The translations under genes and the position numbers were made by a program. The notes beneath the pieces were generated by a model, which saw only the letters and a program-made list of their open reading frames with translations, ran no database searches and was not told the DNA's origin. Source: Cellulomonas marina (GTDB taxonomy: Bacteria; Actinomycetota; Actinomycetes; Actinomycetales; Cellulomonadaceae). Taken from it: a stretch of DNA of 64,000 nucleotides. Positions 17,513 through 26,786 of this stretch are shown here, in pieces (position 1 is the first letter of the stretch; each line of letters opens with the position of its first letter). The stretch lies in assembly GCF_900111925.1 (NCBI RefSeq), contig NZ_FOKA01000005.1, forward strand, positions 186,001-250,000, read 5' to 3'.

Positions 17513-18430
17513 TCAGCCCTTCGTGCCCGTCAGGCCGCGCTGGTGCAGCACGCGCCGCTCGAGCGGGGAGAAGACGAGCAGGTCGACCGCGACGCCGACG
17601 AGGAGGATGAGCAGGATGCCGACGAAGACGCCGTCCATCTGGTGCAGCTGCCGTGCCTGGTCGAGGTACTGCCCGAGGCCGATCCCGAGCTGGGGGGAGG
17701 CGGCGATGAGCTCGGCGGCCATGAGGGAGCGCCAGGAGAAGGCCCAGCCCTGCTTGAGCCCGGCGAGGTAGCCGGGCAGGGCGGCGGGCAGGAGCACGTG
17801 GCGCACGCGGTCGGGTGCGGACAGCCCCAGCACGCGCCCGACCTTGTCGAACAGCGGCGGTACCTGGTCCAGGCCCGAGAGCAGCCCGTTGATGACCGAG
17901 GGGACGGCGCCGAGCAGGATGACGGCGTAGATGGCGTCGTCCGTGAGCCCGAACCAGATGATGGCGGCCGGGACCCATGCGACGGAGGGCAGCGACTGCA
18001 GCCCCGAGATGAGGGGCCCGAAGCCGGCCCGCAGCAGCCGGCTGCGCGACAGGACGATCCCCAGCACGGTCCCGACGAGCACGGCGACGACGAAGCCGAG
18101 CACGCCGCGCGAGACGCTCGTCCAGAGGATGTCCCACACCCGGCCGGTGGTGACGAGCTCCGCGACGGTGCCGGCGACCTCCGTGGGTGCGGGCAGGATG
18201 TAGCGCGGCTTGAGCTCCAGGGACACGGCGACCTGCCACACCGCCAGCAGGCCCAGCAGCACGACGACCGGGGGGAGGAGCGAGCGGGCCGTCGCGCGGG
18301 CTCCGGGGGCGCGCGGTGCGGCCGTCTCCAGGGCGTCGAGCCCCGCCTCGAGCGCGCGCGTGCCGGTGCGGTCCCCCGTGTGGTCCTCCGTGCGGTCCCC
18401 GGAGGACCGCACCTGTGCCTCAGCGGCCAT
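17513..18430 (-). CDS. ABC transporter permease, sulfonate/nitrate/taurine type
   Basis: 305 residues with about six membrane segments from residue 50 on. The cytoplasmic EAA loop is visible around LGLSAPDRVRHVLLPAALP. It belongs to the SsuC/TauC/NrtB family. The gene overlaps the end of the ATPase gene by 11 bases and is the last of the three-gene transporter set, itself downstream of cysN. The context suggests uptake of sulfate or an organosulfur compound. No desulfonating monooxygenase (SsuD or TauD) is nearby, so the substrate stays open. Confidence 0.85.
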   Translation of the reverse strand: MAAEAQVRSSGDRTEDHTGDRTGTRALEAGLDALETAAPRAPGARATARSLLPPVVVLLGLLAVWQVAVSLELKPRYILPAPTEVAGTVAELVTTGRVWDILWTSVSRGVLGFVVAVLVGTVLGIVLSRSRLLRAGFGPLISGLQSLPSVAWVPAAIIWFGLTDDAIYAVILLGAVPSVINGLLSGLDQVPPLFDKVGRVLGLSAPDRVRHVLLPAALPGYLAGLKQGWAFSWRSLMAAELIAASPQLGIGLGQYLDQARQLHQMDGVFVGILLILLVGVAVDLLVFSPLERRVLHQRGLTGTKG

Positions 18431-19304
18431 GGCGGCTGATCTCCCCTCGCAGGTGCTCCGTGATCTCGACGGCGAGCTGGGCGACGCCGGGCGACTCGAT
18501 GCGCCGCGGCTGCGGCAGGTCGACGGCCCACTCGCGGATGATCCGGCCGGGCCGGGAGCTCATGAGCAGCACGCGCTGGCCGAGCCGGACGGCCTCGCGC
18601 ACGTTGTGGGTGACGAACACGACCGCGAGGCGCTGCTCCGCCCACACCCGCGTCAGCTCCTCGTGCAGGACGTCGCGCGTGATGGCGTCGAGGGCCGCGA
18701 AGGGCTCGTCCATGAGCAGGACGGGCGAGTCCTGGGCGAGCGCGCGCGCCAGGGCGACGCGCTGGCGCATCCCGCCCGACAGCTCGTGGACGCGCTTGGC
18801 GCCCTGCCCGCCGAGGTTGACCCGCTCGAGCAGCTCGGCGGCGCGGGTCCGCCGCTCGGCGCGGGGCACCTTGCGGGCCCGCAGCGCGAGCTCGACGTTC
18901 GCCGACGCGGTCAGCCACGGCAGCAGGGCCGAGTCCTGGAACATGAGCGAGGGCCGGCCCGCCGGCACCTCCACCCGTCCGGCGGTGGGGGTCTCGAGAC
19001 CCGCGACGAGCTGCAGCAGCGTCGACTTGCCGCAGCCGGACGCCCCGAGCAGGCACACGAACTCGCCCGGGCGGACGGTGAGGTCCACGCCGTCGAGCAC
19101 GGGCGCCGCGCCCGGGGTGAACGCGTGCGTCACCCCGGTCAGGCGCAGGGCCGCGTCGTCGGCGGGACGGGAGCCGGGCGCACGGGGACCGGTGCTCGTC
19201 GTGGTGCTCGTCGTGGTGCTCGTCCCGGTGCTCGTCCCGGTGCTCCCGGTGCTCCCGGTGCCCGTCCCGGCCGCGACGGCCGCCGTCGCGCTGCTGGTGC
19301 TCAT
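18420..19304 (-). CDS. ABC transporter ATP-binding protein, sulfonate/nitrate/taurine type
   Basis: 294 residues. Walker A GASGCGKST is at residues 87-95, the signature LSGGMRQR near 175, Walker B LLMDEPFAALD next, and the H-loop in VFVTHN. It energises import together with the neighbouring permease. The first 48 residues are a Ser/Thr/Gly-rich low-complexity extension from short DNA repeats; the ATPase proper begins near residue 50, so a shorter start cannot be excluded. The ATG overlaps the stop of the upstream binding-protein gene by four bases. Confidence 0.87.
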   Translation of the reverse strand: MSTSSATAAVAAGTGTGSTGSTGTSTGTSTTTSTTTSTGPRAPGSRPADDAALRLTGVTHAFTPGAAPVLDGVDLTVRPGEFVCLLGASGCGKSTLLQLVAGLETPTAGRVEVPAGRPSLMFQDSALLPWLTASANVELALRARKVPRAERRTRAAELLERVNLGGQGAKRVHELSGGMRQRVALARALAQDSPVLLMDEPFAALDAITRDVLHEELTRVWAEQRLAVVFVTHNVREAVRLGQRVLLMSSRPGRIIREWAVDLPQPRRIESPGVAQLAVEITEHLRGEISRHGR

Positions 19305-20440
19305 TCCTCCCCCAGACCGCCGGCGGACACCGGCTCCAGCCCCTGCGCCGACAGCTCGGCGTTGAGGGGACGCAGGTCGTACAGGCCGCCGAGGTCCACC
19401 TCGGCGTCGAGCGTGCCCGCCGTGACGGCGTGCTCCATGGCCGCCTGCAGCGAGGCGGCGACCGGGTCCTCCGTCACCGCCAGGTGCTCCCAGGCGGTGG
19501 CGATGGTCTCCTCGGACAGCGCCGAGCCCGTCAGCTCCTCGAGCCGGCCGTTGACGACCTCGCGGGCGCCGGCCGGGTCGTCGACCGCGCGGGTGACCGC
19601 GGCGACGTGGCCGCGCAGCAGCGCCGCGACCGTCTCGGGGTACTGCGCGAGGTACTCCGTGCGCACGACGAGGTGCGTCGTGACGAACTGCCCCTCGGGC
19701 CACAGGTCGCGCTCGTCGACGAGCGTGGTGCCGCCCGCCTCGAGGACGAGGCGCGTCGCCCACGGCTCGGGCATCCAGGCGCCGTCGATCTCCCCGGACT
19801 GCAGGAGGGTGAGGGAGTCGGCGTTGGCCGACAGGGGGGCGATCGTCACGTCGCCGCCCCCCTCGACCGACGTCTCGAGCCCCTGCTCGGCGAGCCAGTT
19901 CCGCAACGCCACGTCCTGGGTGTTGCCGAGCTGGGGGGAGGCGAGGGTCAGTCCGCGCAGGTCCTCGGCGCTCGTGATCCCCGCGCGGACGACGAGGGAC
20001 GCGCCGCCCGAGGTCGCCCCCGCGACGATGCGCACGATCTGCCCGTCGCTCTGGGCGTGGGCGTTGATCGTCGGTCCGGGGCCGATGTAGGCGGCGTCGA
20101 TGGACCCGCCGAGGAGGCCCTCGACCGCGGACGGCCCGGCGTTGACGACCTGCTCGACGAGCTCCGTGCTGCCGAGCTCGGCCGTGAACAGGCCCTCCGC
20201 GACGCCGATGAGCGCGGCGGCGTGCGTGAGGTTGGCGAAGTACGCGAGGTTGAGGGTCGCGGCCGTGCCCGGGGTGGCGCCGGCGGCGGGGGCGTCGTCC
20301 GAGCAGGCGGCGAGCAGCGGGACCGCGAGGGCGCCGAGCCCTCCGGCCAGGACGGTGCGGCGGGACAGCGGGCCGGACAGCGGACCCGACAGCGTGCCGG
20401 GGATCGAGCCGGGGACGGGAGAGGGCTGGCGGGAGGTCAT
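19301..20440 (-). CDS. Substrate-binding lipoprotein of the sulfur ABC transporter
   Basis: 379 residues. A twin-arginine-like stretch (SRRTVLAGG, residues 26-34) runs into a lipobox LLAAC with Cys46, so it should be a membrane-anchored lipoprotein. The mature part is a SsuA/THI5/NMT1-type binding domain (LAYFANLTHAAALIGVAEGLF, IGPGPTINA, GEIDGAWMPEPWA). It delivers the ligand to the permease/ATPase pair. It starts 61 bases after cysN, in the same direction, and probably belongs to the same transcript. Confidence 0.87.
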   Translation of the reverse strand: MTSRQPSPVPGSIPGTLSGPLSGPLSRRTVLAGGLGALAVPLLAACSDDAPAAGATPGTAATLNLAYFANLTHAAALIGVAEGLFTAELGSTELVEQVVNAGPSAVEGLLGGSIDAAYIGPGPTINAHAQSDGQIVRIVAGATSGGASLVVRAGITSAEDLRGLTLASPQLGNTQDVALRNWLAEQGLETSVEGGGDVTIAPLSANADSLTLLQSGEIDGAWMPEPWATRLVLEAGGTTLVDERDLWPEGQFVTTHLVVRTEYLAQYPETVAALLRGHVAAVTRAVDDPAGAREVVNGRLEELTGSALSEETIATAWEHLAVTEDPVAASLQAAMEHAVTAGTLDAEVDLGGLYDLRPLNAELSAQGLEPVSAGGLGEE

Positions 20441-20501: not shown

Positions 20502-21860
20502 TCAGGCGCTCGGACGGCCCCCCGGACACCCGCCGGCGAGGGGGTCGCCGACCATGCCGGCGGCCAGCGTCATGCCGTCGGCCTCGTCGACGAGGAGGAA
20601 GGCGCCGCCGTGGCGCAGGGTGGCGTACTCGTCGACCGCCACGGGCTCGGCCAGGCGCAGCGTCAGCCGGCCGATGTCGTTGAGCGCGAACGACGTCGGC
20701 GCGGGGTGCCGCTCGAGGGTCGTCACGTCGAGGCCCTCGTCGAGGGAGCGGATCATCGCGCGGACGGTGCGCGTCCCCGTGCGGACCAGGACGCGCTGCC
20801 GCGGGGCCGCCGGGGTGTCCCCGAGCCAGCACACCGTGCCGGACAGGTCCTGCGTGACCGTCGCGGGGCGGGTCGCGTCGGCCAGGAGGTCGCCGCGGGA
20901 GATGTCGATGTCGTCGGCCAGCCGCAGCGTGACGGACCGCGGCGCCCACGCCGCGTCCAGCGGGCCGTCGGCGGTGTCGATGCCGACGACCGTCGTCGTC
21001 CGGCCCGCGGGCTGCACGACGACCGTGTCGCCGACCGCGACGCCGCCCTGCTCGATGCGCCCCGCGTAGCCGCGGTAGTCCGGGAAGTCCGGCGTCTGCG
21101 GGCGGATGACGACCTGGACGGGGAAGCGCAGGGGCTCCGTGCGCGGGTCGCGCTCGACCGGGACGGCCTCGAGGTGCTCCAGGAGCGTCGGCCCGTCGTA
21201 CCAGGGCATGGCGGCGGAGCGCTCGACGACGTTGTCCCCGGCGAGGGCGGACAGCGGGATGGCGGTGACGTCCTCGACGCCCAGCCCCGTGGCGAGCTCG
21301 GCGAACGCCCCGGCGTGGGTGCGGAACGTCGCCTCGTCGTACCCGACGAGGTCCATCTTGTTCACGGCGAGCACGACGTGCGGCACCCGCAGCAGCGCCG
21401 CGACCGAGACGTGGCGACGGGTCTGCTCCAGCACGCCCTTGCGCGCGTCGAGCAGGACCACGGCGAGCTGGGCCGTCGAGGCGCCCGTGACCATGTTGCG
21501 GGTGTACTGCACGTGACCGGGGGTGTCGGCGAGCACGAAGGCGCGGCGGTCCGTGGCGAAGTAGCGGTACGCGACGTCGATGGTGATGCCCTGCTCGCGC
21601 TCGGCGCGCAGGCCGTCGGTGAGCAGCGCGAGGTCGGCGGCGGCCAGGCCGCGCTCGGCGCTCACGCGCTCGACGGCGGCGAGCTGGTCGGCCAGCACCG
21701 ACTTCGTGTCGTGCAGCAGGCGCCCGACGAGGGTCGACTTGCCGTCGTCGACGGAGCCCGCCGTGGCCAGCCGCAGCAGGTCGCGGGCGCGGGCGGCGCC
21801 GGCCTGCACGGACTCCTGCGCCGACCCCGTCCGGAGCGGGGCGGTCGTCGTGGTGCCCAT
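20502..21860 (-). CDS. cysN: Sulfate adenylyltransferase GTPase subunit CysN
   Basis: 452 residues. An EF-Tu-like GTPase with P-loop GSVDDGKST (35-43), DTPGH and NKMD, followed by two beta-barrel domains. With CysD it couples GTP hydrolysis to formation of adenylyl sulfate (APS) from sulfate and ATP. There is no fused APS kinase, in line with an APS-using reductase (cysH). The ATG overlaps the cysD stop by one base (TGATG). Confidence 0.95.
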   Translation of the reverse strand: MGTTTTAPLRTGSAQESVQAGAARARDLLRLATAGSVDDGKSTLVGRLLHDTKSVLADQLAAVERVSAERGLAAADLALLTDGLRAEREQGITIDVAYRYFATDRRAFVLADTPGHVQYTRNMVTGASTAQLAVVLLDARKGVLEQTRRHVSVAALLRVPHVVLAVNKMDLVGYDEATFRTHAGAFAELATGLGVEDVTAIPLSALAGDNVVERSAAMPWYDGPTLLEHLEAVPVERDPRTEPLRFPVQVVIRPQTPDFPDYRGYAGRIEQGGVAVGDTVVVQPAGRTTTVVGIDTADGPLDAAWAPRSVTLRLADDIDISRGDLLADATRPATVTQDLSGTVCWLGDTPAAPRQRVLVRTGTRTVRAMIRSLDEGLDVTTLERHPAPTSFALNDIGRLTLRLAEPVAVDEYATLRHGGAFLLVDEADGMTLAAGMVGDPLAGGCPGGRPSA

Positions 21861-22807
21861 CAGAAGTACCCCTCGCGCTTGCGGTCCTCCATGGCGGCCT
21901 CGGACATCCGGTCGTCGGCCCGCGTGGCGCCGCGCTCGGTGAGCCGGCTGCCCGCGACCTCGGCGATGACGTCGGCCACGGTCGCGGCGTCGGAGTCCAC
22001 GGCACCCGTGCAGGACATGTCCCCGACCGTGCGGTACCGCACCTGCCGGCGCTCGACCGTCTCGTGCGGCTTCGGCCCGCCCCAGTCGCCGGCGGTCAGC
22101 CACATGCCGTCGCGGGAGAACACGTCGCGCTCGTGCGCGTAGTAGATCGACGGCAGGTCGATGCCCTCGCGCTCGATGTAGAGCCACACGTCCATCTCGG
22201 TCCAGTTGGACAGCGGGAAGACGCGCACGTGCTCGCCCGGGCGGTGGCGGCCGTTGTACAGCCCCCACAGCTCGGGGCGCTGGCGGCGCGGGTCCCAGGC
22301 GCCGAACTCGTCGCGCAGGGAGAAGACGCGCTCCTTGGCGCGGGCCTTCTCCTCGTCGCGGCGGCCGCCGCCGAAGACCGCGTCGAAGCGGCCCTCCTCG
22401 ATCGCCTCGAGGAGGGGGACGGTCTGCAGCGGGTTGCGGGTGCCGTCAGGGCGCTCGCGGAGCTTGCCCGCGTCGATCGCGTCCTGCACGGACGCGACGA
22501 GCAGCCGCAGCCCGAGCCTCTCGGCGGTGGCGTCGCGGTGCGCGAGGACCTCGGGGAAGTTGTGCCCCGTGTCGACGTGCAGCAGCGGGAACGGCACCGG
22601 GGCCGGCCAGAACGCCTTGACCGCCAGGTGCAGCATGACGATCGAGTCCTTGCCGCCGGAGAACAGGAGCACGGGGCGCTCGAGCTCGCCGACGACCTCG
22701 CGGAAGATGTGGATGGCCTCCGACTCGAGGTCGTCGAGCTGGGACAGGGCGACGCCGGCGAGGTCCCGCGCCTGCTCGGACGTGCGGTCCGCCGTCACGG
22801 CGCTCAC
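21860..22807 (-). CDS. cysD: Sulfate adenylyltransferase subunit CysD
   Basis: 315 residues. The PP-loop SGGKDS (50-55), the HVDTGHNFPEV region, the RRDEEKARAKER stretch and the C-terminal KREGYF are all standard. It transfers AMP from ATP to sulfate. GTG at 22807 was chosen because it overlaps the cysH stop by four bases (GTGA); a GTG five codons upstream is possible but has no better ribosome site. Confidence 0.95.
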   Translation of the reverse strand: MSAVTADRTSEQARDLAGVALSQLDDLESEAIHIFREVVGELERPVLLFSGGKDSIVMLHLAVKAFWPAPVPFPLLHVDTGHNFPEVLAHRDATAERLGLRLLVASVQDAIDAGKLRERPDGTRNPLQTVPLLEAIEEGRFDAVFGGGRRDEEKARAKERVFSLRDEFGAWDPRRQRPELWGLYNGRHRPGEHVRVFPLSNWTEMDVWLYIEREGIDLPSIYYAHERDVFSRDGMWLTAGDWGGPKPHETVERRQVRYRTVGDMSCTGAVDSDAATVADVIAEVAGSRLTERGATRADDRMSEAAMEDRKREGYF

Positions 22808-23610
22808 GTGTGCAGCCCGCACTCGGTCTTGGCGCGGCCGGCCCAGCGGCCGGCGCGCGCGTCCTCGCCGGGAGCGACCGGGCGCGTGCAGGGCTCGCAG
22901 CCGATCGAGGCGTACCCCGCGTCGCGCAGGAGGTTCATGAGGACCCCGTTCTCGGCGGCGAACCGCTGGACGTCGTCGTCGGTCCAGGCGGCGACCGGGT
23001 TGAGCTTGACCTTGCCGCGGCGGGCGTCCCAGCCGACGAGCGTGATGTCGGTGCGCGTCGGGGCGTCGGCGCGGCGCATGCCCGTGACCCAGGCGCGGTA
23101 GGGCGCCAGCCCCCGCTGCAGCGGCTCGACCTTGCGGATCGCGCAGCAGGCGTCGGGGTCGCGGTCGTGCAGGCGCGGGCCGTGCTGGGCGTCCTGCTGC
23201 GCGACCGTGAGCAGCGGCAGGACCGTGCGGACCGTGACGGGCAGCGTCGCGGCGACCGCGTCGCGCGTGCCCAGCGTCTCGGCGAAGTGGTAGCCCGTGT
23301 CGAGGAAGAGCACGTCCACGCCCGGCGCCGTCTGCGAGGCCAGGTGGACGAGGACCTCGTCGCCCATGGAGGACGCGACGACGAGATCGTCGCCGAACGT
23401 CCCGTGCGCCCAGCGCAGGGCCCGCGCCGCGAGGTCGACGCGCGCCTCGTAGGTGTCCGGCGCGTCGGCCTCGAGGGCGGCGAACCGCGCCTCCGCCTCG
23501 AGGGCCAGCGCGCGCAGCGCGTCGTCGGCGGCCGGGTCGTGCCCGGCGACGTGGTCGGCGACGCCGACCCGCGGGGCCGTGCTCGTGCTCGTGCTCGTGG
23601 TGCTGCTCAT
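22804..23610 (-). CDS. cysH: Assimilatory APS reductase (phosphoadenylyl/adenylyl-sulfate reductase)
   Basis: 268 residues. It reduces APS to sulfite. The 4Fe-4S ligands of the APS-specific type are present: Cys155-Cys156, Cys238 and Cys241. The catalytic Cys is 264 in ECGLH, near the C-terminus. The PP-loop region reads VVASSMGDEVLVHL. The first dozen residues are a Ser/Thr repeat. The ATG overlaps the stop of the preceding zinc-ribbon gene by four bases. The iron-sulfur cysteines argue for APS rather than PAPS as substrate. Confidence 0.93.
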   Translation of the reverse strand: MSSTTSTSTSTAPRVGVADHVAGHDPAADDALRALALEAEARFAALEADAPDTYEARVDLAARALRWAHGTFGDDLVVASSMGDEVLVHLASQTAPGVDVLFLDTGYHFAETLGTRDAVAATLPVTVRTVLPLLTVAQQDAQHGPRLHDRDPDACCAIRKVEPLQRGLAPYRAWVTGMRRADAPTRTDITLVGWDARRGKVKLNPVAAWTDDDVQRFAAENGVLMNLLRDAGYASIGCEPCTRPVAPGEDARAGRWAGRAKTECGLHT

Positions 23611-23786
23611 GACCTCTCCACCTGCCCCACCGTCTGGCCGACCCTCTGACCGACCATGCGCAGCGCGAACACGCGCGTGCAGCCGCGGCATTCCCACGTC
23701 GCGTGCTCCGGGCCCGCGGGGCGCAGGTCCTCCTCCCCGCAGAACGGGCAGAAGTACGGCACCGCGCGGCCGCCCTCCTCGCTCAC
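23607..23786 (-). CDS. Small zinc-ribbon protein of the sulfite-reductase operon
   Basis: 59 residues, with CPFC (13-16) and CRGC (33-36) making a rubredoxin-like or zinc-ribbon knuckle pair. It overlaps the sulfite reductase stop (GTGA) and the cysH start (ATGA), four bases each, so it is translated between the two enzymes. I recall similar small genes between sulfite reductase and cysH in other actinobacteria, with no assigned role. It may bind zinc or iron and help assemble or feed electrons to one of the neighbours; this is inference. Confidence 0.8.
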   Translation of the reverse strand: MSEEGGRAVPYFCPFCGEEDLRPAGPEHATWECRGCTRVFALRMVGQRVGQTVGQVERS

Positions 23787-25471
23787 CGCAGCACCTCCTC
23801 GTCGGCGCGCTGGACCCACTGGGCGAACGTCTCGTCGGCCTCGCGGCCGGCCTCGAAGGCACGGGCCAGGCGCTCGACGTACGCCGGGAGCTCGTCGCCC
23901 ACGACCTTGTGGCCGCGCAGCTTGCGGCCGAAGGAGGCCTGACCGCCGAGCGTGCCGCCCAGGTGGACCTGGAACCCCTCGACCTGGCGGCCCTCGTCGT
24001 CCGTGACGATCTGACCCTTGAGGCCGATGTCCGCGGTCTGGATGCGCGCGCAGGAGTTGGGGCAGCCGTTGACGTTGATCGTCAGCGGGTGCTCGAACGT
24101 CGGCAGCGCCGCCTCGAGGGCCGCGACCGTGCGGGCGGCGCGGGCCTTCGTCTCGACGATGGCGAGCTTGCAGTACTCGATGCCGGTGCAGGCGATGGTG
24201 CCCCGACGGAACTCGGAGGGGTCGGCGTGCAGGCCCAGCCCCGCCAGCCCGGCGACGAGGGCGTCCACCCGGTCGGCCGCCACGTCGAGGACGAGCAGCT
24301 TCTGCTCCACCGTCAGGCGGACGCGGTCGGAGCCGGCGGCCTCGACGAGGTCCGCGACGCGGTCGAGGACCTCGCCCGAGATGCGGCCGACCGTCGGGCT
24401 GACGCCGACGTAGAACCGGCCGTCCTTCTGCCGGTGCACGCCGAGGTGGTCGCGGCGGCCCTCCGCCGGGGCGGGGGCGGGCCCGTCGAGCAGGGGGCGG
24501 TGCAGGTACTCGGTCTCGAGCACGTCGCGGAAGCGCTGCGCGCCCCAGTCGGCGACGAGGTACTTCAGCCGCGCGCGGTTGCGCAGCCGGCGGTAGCCGT
24601 AGTCGCGGAAGATCCCGATGACGCCCGCCCACACCTCGGGGACCTCGGCCAGCGGGACCCAGGCGCCGAGGCGCTGGGCGACGTGCGCGGACGTGGACAG
24701 CCCGCCGCCCACCCACACGTCGAAGCCCGGGCCGTGCTCGGGGTGCACGACGCCGACGAAGGACACGTCGTTGATCTCGTGGACGACGTCGAGGTGCGGG
24801 TTGCCGGAGATGGCGGTCTTGAACTTGCGGGGGAGGTTGGAGAACGCCGGGTCCCCGACGTAGCGCTCGGTGATGGCGTCGATGGCCGGCGTGCCGTCGA
24901 TGATCTCGTCGGCCGCGACGCCGGCGACGGGGGAGCCGAGCACCACGCGCGGGGTGTCGCCGCAGGCCTCGGTCGTCGACAGGCCGGCGCCCTCGAGCGC
25001 CCGCCAGATCTCGGGGACGTCCTCGATGCGGACCCAGTGCAGCTGGATGTTCTGCCGGTCGGTGATGTCCGCGGTGCTGCGGGCGAACCGGCGCGAGACC
25101 TCGGCCACCGCGCGCGTCTGGGCGACGGTCAGCCGGCCGCCGTCGAGGCGGACCCGGAGCATGAAGTACTCGTCGTCGAGCTCGTGCGGCTCGAGCACGG
25201 CCGTCCGGCCGCCGTCGATGCCGGGCTTGCGCTGGGTGTACAGGCCCCACCAGCGCATCCGCCCGCGCAGGTCCTGGGGCGCGATCGAGGCGAAGCCCTC
25301 CCGGGCGTAGACCTCCTCGATCCGCGCGCGGACGTTGAGGCCGTCGTCCTCCTGCTTGAACCGCTCGTTGGGGTTGAGCGGCTCACGGCTGCCCAGGGCC
25401 CACTGGCCGTGGTCCTGGGTGCGCGTCGGCCGGCCCGCGGCGCGGGGGGTCGAGGTGGTGTCGGCCGACAT
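23783..25471 (-). CDS. sir: Ferredoxin-dependent sulfite reductase (nitrite/sulfite reductase family)
   Basis: 562 residues with two ferredoxin-like and two siroheme/4Fe-4S half-domains. The cluster ligands are Cys428 and Cys434 (CTGIEYC) and Cys470 and Cys474 (NGCPNSC). It reduces sulfite to sulfide with six electrons. Placement next to cysH, cysD and cysN favours sulfite over nitrite. No flavoprotein subunit is present, so ferredoxin is the likely donor. It is the first enzyme gene of the operon, 107 bases after the leader peptide. Confidence 0.93.
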   Translation of the reverse strand: MSADTTSTPRAAGRPTRTQDHGQWALGSREPLNPNERFKQEDDGLNVRARIEEVYAREGFASIAPQDLRGRMRWWGLYTQRKPGIDGGRTAVLEPHELDDEYFMLRVRLDGGRLTVAQTRAVAEVSRRFARSTADITDRQNIQLHWVRIEDVPEIWRALEGAGLSTTEACGDTPRVVLGSPVAGVAADEIIDGTPAIDAITERYVGDPAFSNLPRKFKTAISGNPHLDVVHEINDVSFVGVVHPEHGPGFDVWVGGGLSTSAHVAQRLGAWVPLAEVPEVWAGVIGIFRDYGYRRLRNRARLKYLVADWGAQRFRDVLETEYLHRPLLDGPAPAPAEGRRDHLGVHRQKDGRFYVGVSPTVGRISGEVLDRVADLVEAAGSDRVRLTVEQKLLVLDVAADRVDALVAGLAGLGLHADPSEFRRGTIACTGIEYCKLAIVETKARAARTVAALEAALPTFEHPLTINVNGCPNSCARIQTADIGLKGQIVTDDEGRQVEGFQVHLGGTLGGQASFGRKLRGHKVVGDELPAYVERLARAFEAGREADETFAQWVQRADEEVLR

Positions 25472-25531
25472 GGTGCGGCGGTCCTCCGGTGGGGGCGGAG
25501 GGTGCCGGGGCGCAGGTCCGCGCAGCGTTCA

Positions 25532-25558
25532 CGCGGGTGCTGGCCGTCGGCACCCGCG
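25532..25558 (-). promoter_or_regulatory. Attenuator hairpin downstream of the Cys leader peptide
   Basis: Read on the - strand, CGCGGGTGC (25558-25550) pairs with GCACCCGCG (25540-25532), a 9-base stem with a 9-base loop. The left arm can also pair with GGCACCC (25590-25584), which lies in the last codons of the leader peptide, so the two pairings exclude each other. That is the layout of ribosome-controlled attenuation. There is no T run, so termination could be Rho-dependent or the structure may act on translation. Confidence 0.6.
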
Positions 25559-25578
25559 GAGAGGTCTGAGGGGGTGCG

Positions 25579-25689
25579 TCAGGGGGTGCCAACCGGCCGA
25601 CAACAGGCCGGCGCGGCGCAGGCCATCGAGGCCAGACGCATGAGGTCGACGTGCAGGCGCGCGGTGAGCAGCGCAGCGGCGGTCGACAT
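25579..25689 (-). CDS. Cys-rich leader peptide of the sulfur assimilation operon
   Basis: 36 residues with the core LLTARLHVDLMRLASMACAA and then a Cys-Cys pair. I recognise this as the short 'LTARxHVDLxR' leader peptide found upstream of sulfur genes in actinobacteria. The adjacent TGT TGT codons lie in the loop of a hairpin (CCGGCC/GGCCGG at 25611-25606 and 25598-25593), and a third Cys codon lies five codons earlier. No Shine-Dalgarno site is seen, so it may be leaderless. A stalled ribosome at these codons under cysteine shortage would change the downstream folding. Confidence 0.8.
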   Translation of the reverse strand: MSTAAALLTARLHVDLMRLASMACAAPACCRPVGTP

Positions 25690-25799
25690 GGCGAGGAGTC
25701 TCGCACGGCCGCCCCGGGGGCTGTCACGTCGTGTCCGCCCATTGGATGGGACGAGGTGTCCGGCAAGTGAGACAGGTGCGCGACGGCTACCGTGCTGCC

Positions 25800-26786
25800 G
25801 TGCTCGACCACCCCTCGCCACCACCGGATGCGATGCCGCCGGACGCGGTGCCGGGGACGCCGTCGGTGCGCCTGCGCCTGGACCTGGCCTACGACGGCAC
25901 GGACTTCGCCGGCTGGGCCCGTCAGCCCGGGCTCCGCAGCGTGCAGGGCGTGCTGGAGGACGCCCTGGCCACCGTGCTGCGGACCGCGGCGCGCGACGAG
26001 GCGGCGCCCCGGCTCGTGGTCGCGGGACGGACGGACGCCGGTGTCCACGCCCGGGGGCAGGTGGCGCACGTGGACGTGACGGCGGTCGCCTGGGCGGCCG
26101 CCGGCGGGCGCGGCGGCCGGTCGTCGGAGGACGCGCTCGTCGCGCGCCTCGGCGGGCTGCTGCCCGACGACCTCGTCGTCCGGCGGGTGGCGGTGGCGCC
26201 GGCCGGGTTCGACGCGCGGTTCTCCGCCCTGCGCCGGCGCTACGCGTACCGCGTGTGCGACGACCCCGCCGGGCGCGACCCCCTGCACCGCGCCTCGGTG
26301 CTGTGGCACCGGCGACGGCTCGACGTCGCCGCGATGGACGCCGCGGCGGGGGAGCTCGTCGGGCTGCACGACTTCGCGGCGTTCTGCAAGCCGCGCGAGG
26401 GGGCGACGACCATCCGCCGCCTCGAGCGGTTCGGCTGGGAGCGGCCGCCCGACGGGCCCGACGCGGGGCTCGTGGTGGCCGCCGTGCAGGCGGACGCGTT
26501 CTGCCACTCCATGGTGCGGGCGCTCGTGGGCGCGTCGCTGGCCGTGGGGGAGGGGCGCCGGCCGGTCGGCTGGCCCGCGGGGCTGCTCGCCTCGCGCTCG
26601 CGGGCGGGCGGGGCCGCCGTCGTGGCGGCGCACGGGCTCACGCTCGAGGAGGTCGGCTACCCCGACGACGACGCGCTCGCGGCCCGCGCGGACGCCACCA
26701 GGGCCCGCCGCGGTGCCCACGAGGTGGGACCGCAGCCGGGCGCGGCACCGGCCGGGACCGGCGCCGCGCCCGGCGGCTGCTGCTGA
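25800..26786 (+). CDS. truA: tRNA pseudouridine(38-40) synthase TruA
   Basis: 328 residues. The catalytic motif GRTDAGVHA is at 76-84 with Asp79, preceded by LAYDGTDFAGWARQP and followed by FSALRRRYAYRV. It modifies the anticodon stem-loop of many tRNAs. GTG at 25800 was chosen because TACCGT (25788-25793) precedes it by six bases, a leaderless layout. The last 45 residues are a Gly/Ala/Pro tail ending GGCC, beyond the normal domain. Confidence 0.92.
   Translation: MLDHPSPPPDAMPPDAVPGTPSVRLRLDLAYDGTDFAGWARQPGLRSVQGVLEDALATVLRTAARDEAAPRLVVAGRTDAGVHARGQVAHVDVTAVAWAAAGGRGGRSSEDALVARLGGLLPDDLVVRRVAVAPAGFDARFSALRRRYAYRVCDDPAGRDPLHRASVLWHRRRLDVAAMDAAAGELVGLHDFAAFCKPREGATTIRRLERFGWERPPDGPDAGLVVAAVQADAFCHSMVRALVGASLAVGEGRRPVGWPAGLLASRSRAGGAAVVAAHGLTLEEVGYPDDDALAARADATRARRGAHEVGPQPGAAPAGTGAAPGGCC

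Follow-up and report, generated by a model that had tools for sequence, protein, structure and literature searches.

A likely cysteine-responsive leader peptide with a near-fixed TGT codon upstream of the sulfite reductase operon of Cellulomonas marina

How is the sulfate assimilation operon of Cellulomonas marina tuned to the supply of cysteine, and does the short frame that precedes it act as the sensor? We analyzed a stretch of 64,000 nucleotides (contig NZ_FOKA01000005.1, positions 186,001 to 250,000), called the window below. A first-pass annotation had placed in it, ahead of a sulfur operon, a 36-codon frame with three Cys codons, and had proposed that ribosomes stalling on these codons choose between two RNA folds. 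The frame is indeed present, from 25689 to 25579 on the minus strand, with Cys at codons 24, 29 and 30, and so is the operon, as sir, its first gene, is accompanied on the same strand by cysH-, cysD- and cysN-like genes and by the genes of an ABC importer whose substrate is probably a sulfonate or another sulfur compound (Table 1). The names cysD (21860..22822) and cysN (20502..22268) are presumptive, taken from gene position. The leader stop lies 107 nt from the sir ATG.

Table 1. Features of the leader region and the downstream operon (window coordinates; G059 is the genome of the nearest relative)
Feature	Position	Strand	Evidence or remark
Possible -35 element TGACAG; function inferred	25721..25726	-	Present too in the G059 alignment
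-10-like hexamer GAGACT of extended -10 type (TGCGAGACT), 7 nt ahead of the leader ATG	25697..25702	-	Equivalent block in G059, 6 nt ahead of its ATG
Leader peptide ORF MSTAAALLTARLHVDLMRLASMACAAPACCRPVGTP*	25579..25689	-	36 codons; near-NF042934 score; kept in G059
Cys codon 24, TGC	25618..25620	-	Cys position of the LTARxHVDLxR motif
Cys codons 29-30, TGT TGT, adjacent; presumed sensing codons	25600..25605	-	Identical in G059
Hairpin CCGGCC-TGTTGTC-GGCCGG around the Cys codons	25593..25611	-	-13.7 kcal/mol; 2 of 6 pairs broken in G059
Leader end GGTTGGCACCC	25584..25594	-	10/11 pairs with GGGTGCCGACG at 25555-25545; -19.3 kcal/mol for 25545-25595
Spacer behind the leader stop, rich in C and poor in G; candidate Rho-loading stretch	25559..25578	-	Composition (C 0.60, G 0.10)
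Downstream hairpin H2, CGCGGGTGC-(9 nt)-GCACCCGCG	25532..25558	-	-20.2 kcal/mol; 8/9 pairs in G059
Hairpin CCTCCG-CCCCCAC-CGGAGG, would bury the sir Shine-Dalgarno	25483..25501	-	-9.8 kcal/mol; CCTCC...GGAGG also in G059
CGGCCGACACCA, sir codons 2-6	25456..25467	-	11/12 complementary to 25605-25594 (Cys-codon segment)
sir (NirA-type ferredoxin sulfite/nitrite reductase), opening the operon	23783..25471	-	Profile matches
cysH-like APS/PAPS reductase (ORF, start not refined)	22804..23862	-	PF01507
cysD-like sulfate adenylyltransferase small subunit	21860..22822	-	PF01507
cysN-like GTPase subunit of sulfate adenylyltransferase (ORF with unrefined start)	20502..22268	-	PF00009
ABC importer: substrate-binding protein, ATPase, permease	17513..20440	-	PF13379, PF00005, PF00528

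The frame, its family resemblance, a leaderless signature and a bias for TGT were all obtained by computation. Against the NCBIfam model NF042934, the peptide scores 26.6 bits (E 3.3e-6; 26.3 bits in the genome scan), just under the curated cut-off of 27, and its orthologue in G059, MSTDRAVRLVARRHVDLLRTASAACGTPACCRTARAL, scores 32.6 bits (26.4 with NF042936). Thus, the window copy narrowly misses the formal cut-off and the sister copy passes it, and the LTARxHVDLxR family assignment made in the first pass holds in the form of a near-member. The model of the Ms4527A leader, NF042936, gives the window peptide 12.8 bits, far under its curated cut-off of 45. NF042934 leaders are typically found upstream of sulfur or cysteine genes, which is also where the window leader is located, given the sir, cysH-, cysD-, cysN-like and ABC genes that follow it. 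A peptide search of 60 genomes of the genus returned a single strong match, in G059 (E 4.3e-7), the next one (0.0018) containing an internal stop; among the 81 genus genomes, G059 is also the only other one with a close sir (88%; next 75%). Conservation in this nearest relative and the NF042934 match take the frame beyond chance, and it is very probably a genuine leader peptide. Rfam gave no match up to E 1 in 25300-25800, and a literature search found nothing on this leader locus.

Leaders of this general kind are widespread upstream of sir. The gene was detected at E <= 1e-100 in 55 of the 81 genus genomes, the window's own counted, and upstream DNA was taken for all 55; the other 26 genomes had no sir at this threshold. 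A Cys-rich leader was called at 49 of 50 other genus loci, a count that omits the window, G059 and three loci (L171-L173) with a diverged sir (65-66% identity). At those three, a quick scan noticed no Cys leader of these types. The genus leaders are polycysteine peptides such as VNLPGTRCLCRCCRAAAVPCACCPRNR, devoid of the HVDL motif, and none of the five that were tested matched an NCBIfam model at E <= 1, so that annotation may miss such leaders. In the sister genus g96, a leader was called at all seven loci, and in other genera of the family at 45 of 60 loci, many being of the kind MTTAAHLLLVTARHESTACARNSFCCCC; these two groups cover 67 hand-chosen genomes of the 105 that carry sir. A named set composed mostly of Streptomyces and Kitasatospora, the best 80 of 587 candidates, yielded leaders at 79 loci, typically MSGTGIALVSRRHVDLGRMSSAICPAS with one Cys. 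No leader was called at L065 and at 15 of the 60 loci of other genera, and L145 is truncated by a contig end. The caller is loose and automatic; its calls at L037, L083 and L253 are probably wrong, and L247 was kept with an uncertain sir start. A scan of the order with NF042934 placed 38 of 297 genomes above the cut-off, matches at E up to 1 being uninformative because 6 of 14 control genomes also responded.

With both an HVDL core and a terminal CC pair, the window leader is a hybrid of the two types, which replace each other before one and the same gene, sir. The leader is thus of a kind known in relatives, and what is new here is its leaderless look, its TGT TGT pair and its hybrid type, which differs from the genus polycysteine leaders.

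The sequences upstream of the leaders share a promoter-like arrangement. A hexamer of the form nAnnnT (A second, T last) precedes the leader start by 6 or 7 nt in 42 of 49 genus leaders, 40 of 45 from other genera, 77 of 77 from the named set (L037 and L083 of its 79 excluded) and both the window and G059, and it occurs at the other tested offsets in only 0 to 4 leaders; the start choice is uncertain for some leaders. The sister genus g96 has it at this distance in merely 2 of 7. Shine-Dalgarno-like sequences before the leader start are rare (genus, 1/49; other genera, 3/45; named set, 1/77; window and G059, 0/2). A scan for consensus sigma-70 promoters found no match in the window leader region. 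The spacing of the -10-like hexamer and the missing Shine-Dalgarno sequence suggest that the leader mRNA is leaderless, as it would be in most relatives. The layout of a leaderless cysteine attenuator would thereby be extended to sulfite reductase operons across a whole actinobacterial family.

The Cys codons themselves depart from the codon usage of their surroundings. A selection of 33 gene frames from the window contains 63 TGC and no TGT codons for Cys, and the last Cys codon of the leader is TGT in the window and G059 (2/2), in all 49 genus leaders, in 44 of 45 from other genera and in 77 of 78 from the Streptomyces-dominated named set, where L037 was excluded and the single TGC (L031) belongs to an extra Cys behind the usual one. 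The exceptions cluster in g96, where 3 of 7 leaders have TGT. Removal of duplicates left the pattern in place (genus, 41/41; other genera, 41/42; named set, 52/54; g96, 3/7). At the preceding Cys codons of the leaders both forms occur, TGT accounting for 91 of 275 in the genus and 83 of 175 in other genera. The sir genes use TGT at none of 10 Cys codons in the window and G059, none of 170 in the genus loci held whole, 2 of 46 in g96 and 6 of 424 in the named set. Nor are the genus leaders relaxed at their non-Cys codons, with A or T in the third position in 71 of 1099 and T in 6 of 174 two-fold pyrimidine codons; the other codons of the named-set leaders show more relaxation (512/1910 and 90/352, respectively). 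The bias extends to the order, where the Cys after the LTARxHVDLxR motif is TGT in 16 of 18 NF042934-type leaders, mostly before genes other than sir. For this count, 18 of the 30 fetched loci fitted the pattern, and the Cys after the motif was taken rather than the last one, L185 for instance ending in TGT TGC TGC. Thus, the leader Cys codons are under unusual constraint.

Two origins of the bias were considered. Selective charging of isoacceptors at regulatory codons, a phenomenon treated in PMC1183508, is ruled out, as the tRNA scan of the genome gave 45 hits with one tRNA-Cys (GCA), implying that TGC and TGT are both read by one tRNA. Direct pairing with the sir start is suggested by the named set, where a segment around the leader Cys (GCCAT, TGTCC) is complementary to the sir Shine-Dalgarno (GGAC) and start (ATGGC) at 62 of 79 loci and could represent an anti-start-site element; it probably does not fully explain TGT because the family Cys is TGT in leaders of the order that mostly precede other genes. 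A search of largely open-access literature brought up no mention of a TGT/UGU bias in leaders of this kind. We tentatively propose, with rather more doubt than conviction, that actinobacterial cysteine leaders sense with a "forbidden" synonymous codon: the near-fixed last UGU, read through a G-U wobble by the single tRNA-Cys in genomes whose ordinary genes use almost only UGC, might be the slowest point of translation under Cys-tRNA shortage. Such a rule would span leader families and downstream genes, one sister genus excepted, and the window leader, an HVDL and CC hybrid with TGT TGT, would be an intermediate. It is the part most worth following, as it offers a sharp and cheap test of what makes a good starvation-sensor codon where isoacceptor charging cannot be the cause, and as the bias could help to find leaders like the five polycysteine ones that NCBIfam missed.

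We infer stalling, the direction of control and the mode of output as follows. Transcription would start at or beside the leader ATG, as the promoter spacing suggests, and the ribosome would then load on the bare 5′ end. With ample Cys-tRNA, the ribosome would pass TGT TGT and leave at the stop codon, and the RNA between the leader and sir would keep sir expression low. When Cys-tRNA is short, it would pause at the two TGT codons, 8 codons ahead of the stop, block pairing of the Cys-codon segment with the complementary sir codons 2-6, and perhaps free the leader end for pairing with the left arm of the downstream hairpin, with the outcome that sir is expressed. We consider it likely that the locus is a cysteine-responsive Cys-codon attenuator of sir and the sulfate assimilation operon that operates by ribosome stalling. 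By analogy with the mycobacterial polycysteine leaders, for which this has been reported, its output could be translational, with the sir start site being uncovered, a proposal whose chances we put slightly short of even; other or mixed modes of output seem very improbable.

Translational output was examined by masked folding, a check that had been put forward with the first-pass annotation. With a stalled rather than a terminating ribosome, the predicted cost of opening the sir start site decreased in the window (16.3 versus 18.6 kcal/mol), in agreement with the model, but not in G059 (14.0 versus 13.4 kcal/mol), and the relatives were inconsistent, the stalled state being more open in 30 of 49 genus loci, 2 of 7 in g96, 14 of 45 in other genera and 43 of 79 in the named set. 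Compared with the free full-length RNA, stalling made the start more open in the window, G059, 33 of 49 genus loci, 6 of 7 in g96, 33 of 45 in other genera and 63 of 79 in the named set; we rejected this comparison as support because cutting RNA away trivially favors opening. Occlusion of the sir start is ordinary, 11 of 25 window genes being equally or more occluded. The hairpin that would bury the sir Shine-Dalgarno has a z score of -2.16 (4 of 200 shuffles as good). Complementarity between the Cys region and the start site beat permutation in 67 representatives (21 of 5000 as good), and in the three groups tested singly it did not (2415, 3335 and 951 of 5000). The pairing of the Cys segment with sir codons 2-6 keeps 11 of 12 pairs in the window and 10 of 12 in G059, with no two-sided change.

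Scanning the leader region for intrinsic terminators gave no terminator-like site, and a T run is missing, as the first pass had remarked; the output should thus be translational or of the Rho type. In the latter mode of the attenuator, Rho would load on the C-rich spacer after ribosome release and terminate transcription before sir, unless the spacer is covered by a stalled ribosome or by pairing of the leader end. C-rich, G-poor stretches are of the kind that Rho likes, and all 49 genus leaders are followed by a spacer with C > 2G (mean C 0.72, G 0.11). In the window, merely 214 of 127,960 stretches of 20 nt on both strands are comparably C-rich (11 C or more, no more than 2 G). C-richness is nevertheless no proof of a Rho site, and the usual loading site is longer than 20 nt. 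For mycobacterial cys leaders, PMC1262725 suggests Rho as one possibility, but it calls its own poly-Y evidence, and the prediction, weak, and the mycobacterial relatives have been described as translational. We regard Rho-dependent attenuation as unlikely, yet as an alternative to be taken seriously.

The switch as first formulated was more specific, in that a hairpin holding the Cys codons and a leader-end pairing mutually exclusive with a downstream stem would together decide expression. All of its segments exist. The TGT TGT pair sits in the loop of a perfect 6-bp hairpin (arms 25611-25606 and 25598-25593), GGCACCC (25590-25584) and GGGTGCC (25555-25549) are exact reverse complements, and the 9-base stem pairs over 9 bp between 25558-25550 and 25540-25532; the competing folds are similar in energy (-19.3 versus -20.2 kcal/mol). 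In shuffling tests on segments that were picked after the fact, the z scores were -2.70 for the downstream stem (3 of 200 shuffles as good), -2.78 for the Cys-codon hairpin (3 of 200) and -1.86 for the alternative pairing (8 of 200), and the whole 218-nt leader fold gave -1.59, with 12 of 200 shuffles equal. The leader-end pairing is maintained in G059, where, as in the window, it forms 10 of 11 pairs and where one pair differs on both sides, but 4 of 6 pairs remain there in the Cys-codon hairpin and 8 of 9, without compensation, in the downstream stem. This comparison involves the one close relative found among 81 genus genomes.

Covariation in the genus, another check proposed for the switch, gave a divided answer, with the single compensatory change in G059 on one side and, on the other, no covariation of the analogous leader-end pairing (S1:S2a) across 49 genus loci, 40 of them distinct (311 of 2000 permutations as good). 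A hairpin at the place analogous to H2 does covary in the genus (0 of 2000 permutations as good), with 91.1% of cells paired compared with 88.6 in shuffles (0 of 500 as high) and 11 cells changed on both sides compared with 4.9 (1 of 500). Its two-sided changes are confined to the two outermost pairs; on two additional measures the signal was weak, 45 and 319 of 500 shuffles reaching the observed value. We do not claim the downstream hairpin of the window as its homologue: model R1, built on the genus hairpin, has no match in the window and, for L120, a match on the opposite strand only. Partner swaps among distinct pairs of the 49 loci gave no signal either (of 2000 permutations as good: S2b:downstream, 223; S2b:sir start, 213; S2a:start site, 193; Cys region:sir start, 760; Cys region:start site, 494). 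At L121-L170, an inner hairpin H3 downstream of H2 varies widely in sequence yet keeps its pairing (0 of 2000), a permutation test that is circular because the arms were picked by folding. The consensus fold of 56 named-set leaders has little structure (-7.3 kcal/mol over 177 columns). Since the genus H2 covaries and the leader-end pairing does not, a hairpin after the leader is common to the genus, and the exclusive design is a hypothesis. The mutually exclusive two-fold switch is thus weakly supported, and we consider it doubtful that the locus works in exactly this way.

A nascent-chain mechanism, in which the LTARxHVDLxR motif in the exit tunnel rather than the Cys codons pauses the ribosome, could account for the conservation of the motif in leaders that precede a variety of genes and frequently have one Cys codon only; we find it improbable, given that the other called genus leaders are Cys-rich without the motif and that the Cys codon is unusually constrained. 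The motif is dispensable before sir because genus leaders lack it and because the five polycysteine leaders tested are unmatched by the NCBIfam leader models. That the frame is a chance ORF upstream of an operon under ordinary transcription factor control alone is hardly credible, as short ORFs are presumably common at this GC content but conservation at the protein level, leaderless spacing, TGT bias and a consistent position before sir all speak against it.

The cysteine attenuator that we favor can be set beside several known systems. Classical attenuators, as in the trp, his and ilv leaders, combine regulatory codons with competing folds. The window leader shares both, but it is apparently leaderless, is served by one tRNA-Cys and lacks the U-run terminator hairpin of classical transcription attenuators. 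With the NF042934 family, annotated as cis_reg_atten "putative leader peptide", it has in common the LTARxHVDLxRxxSxxC core, Cys at the family position and a site before sulfur genes, and it differs by its score just short of the cut-off and by 12 extra residues, including APACCR, behind the family Cys. Canestrari et al. reportedly described, in 2020, leaderless short ORFs with adjacent Cys codons upstream of cysteine and sulfur genes. The window leader resembles these mycobacterial polycysteine ORFs in being short and apparently leaderless, with adjacent Cys codons and sulfur genes downstream, but it carries the LTARxHVDLxR motif and a single CC pair, scores 12.8 against 45 bits for NF042936, and its mechanism is putative. 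The mycobacterial ORFs (Canestrari et al. 2020, doi 10.1111/mmi.14498) are known to us through PMC13236596 and PMC9094748, the former stating, with reference to Canestrari 2020, that the cysteine biosynthetic genes of M. smegmatis are regulated by translation attenuation. In Seliverstov 2005 (PMC1262725), cys leader peptides without terminators were predicted in Mycobacterium, Propionibacterium acnes and Bifidobacterium longum. These candidates are like the window leader in having Cys codons near the stop (in the window a pair only, CC at 29-30 of 36), no terminator hairpin and a proposed role for Rho, the window host being another actinobacterium. Among these systems, the leader upstream of sir is most likely a cysteine attenuator akin to the mycobacterial polycysteine leaders.
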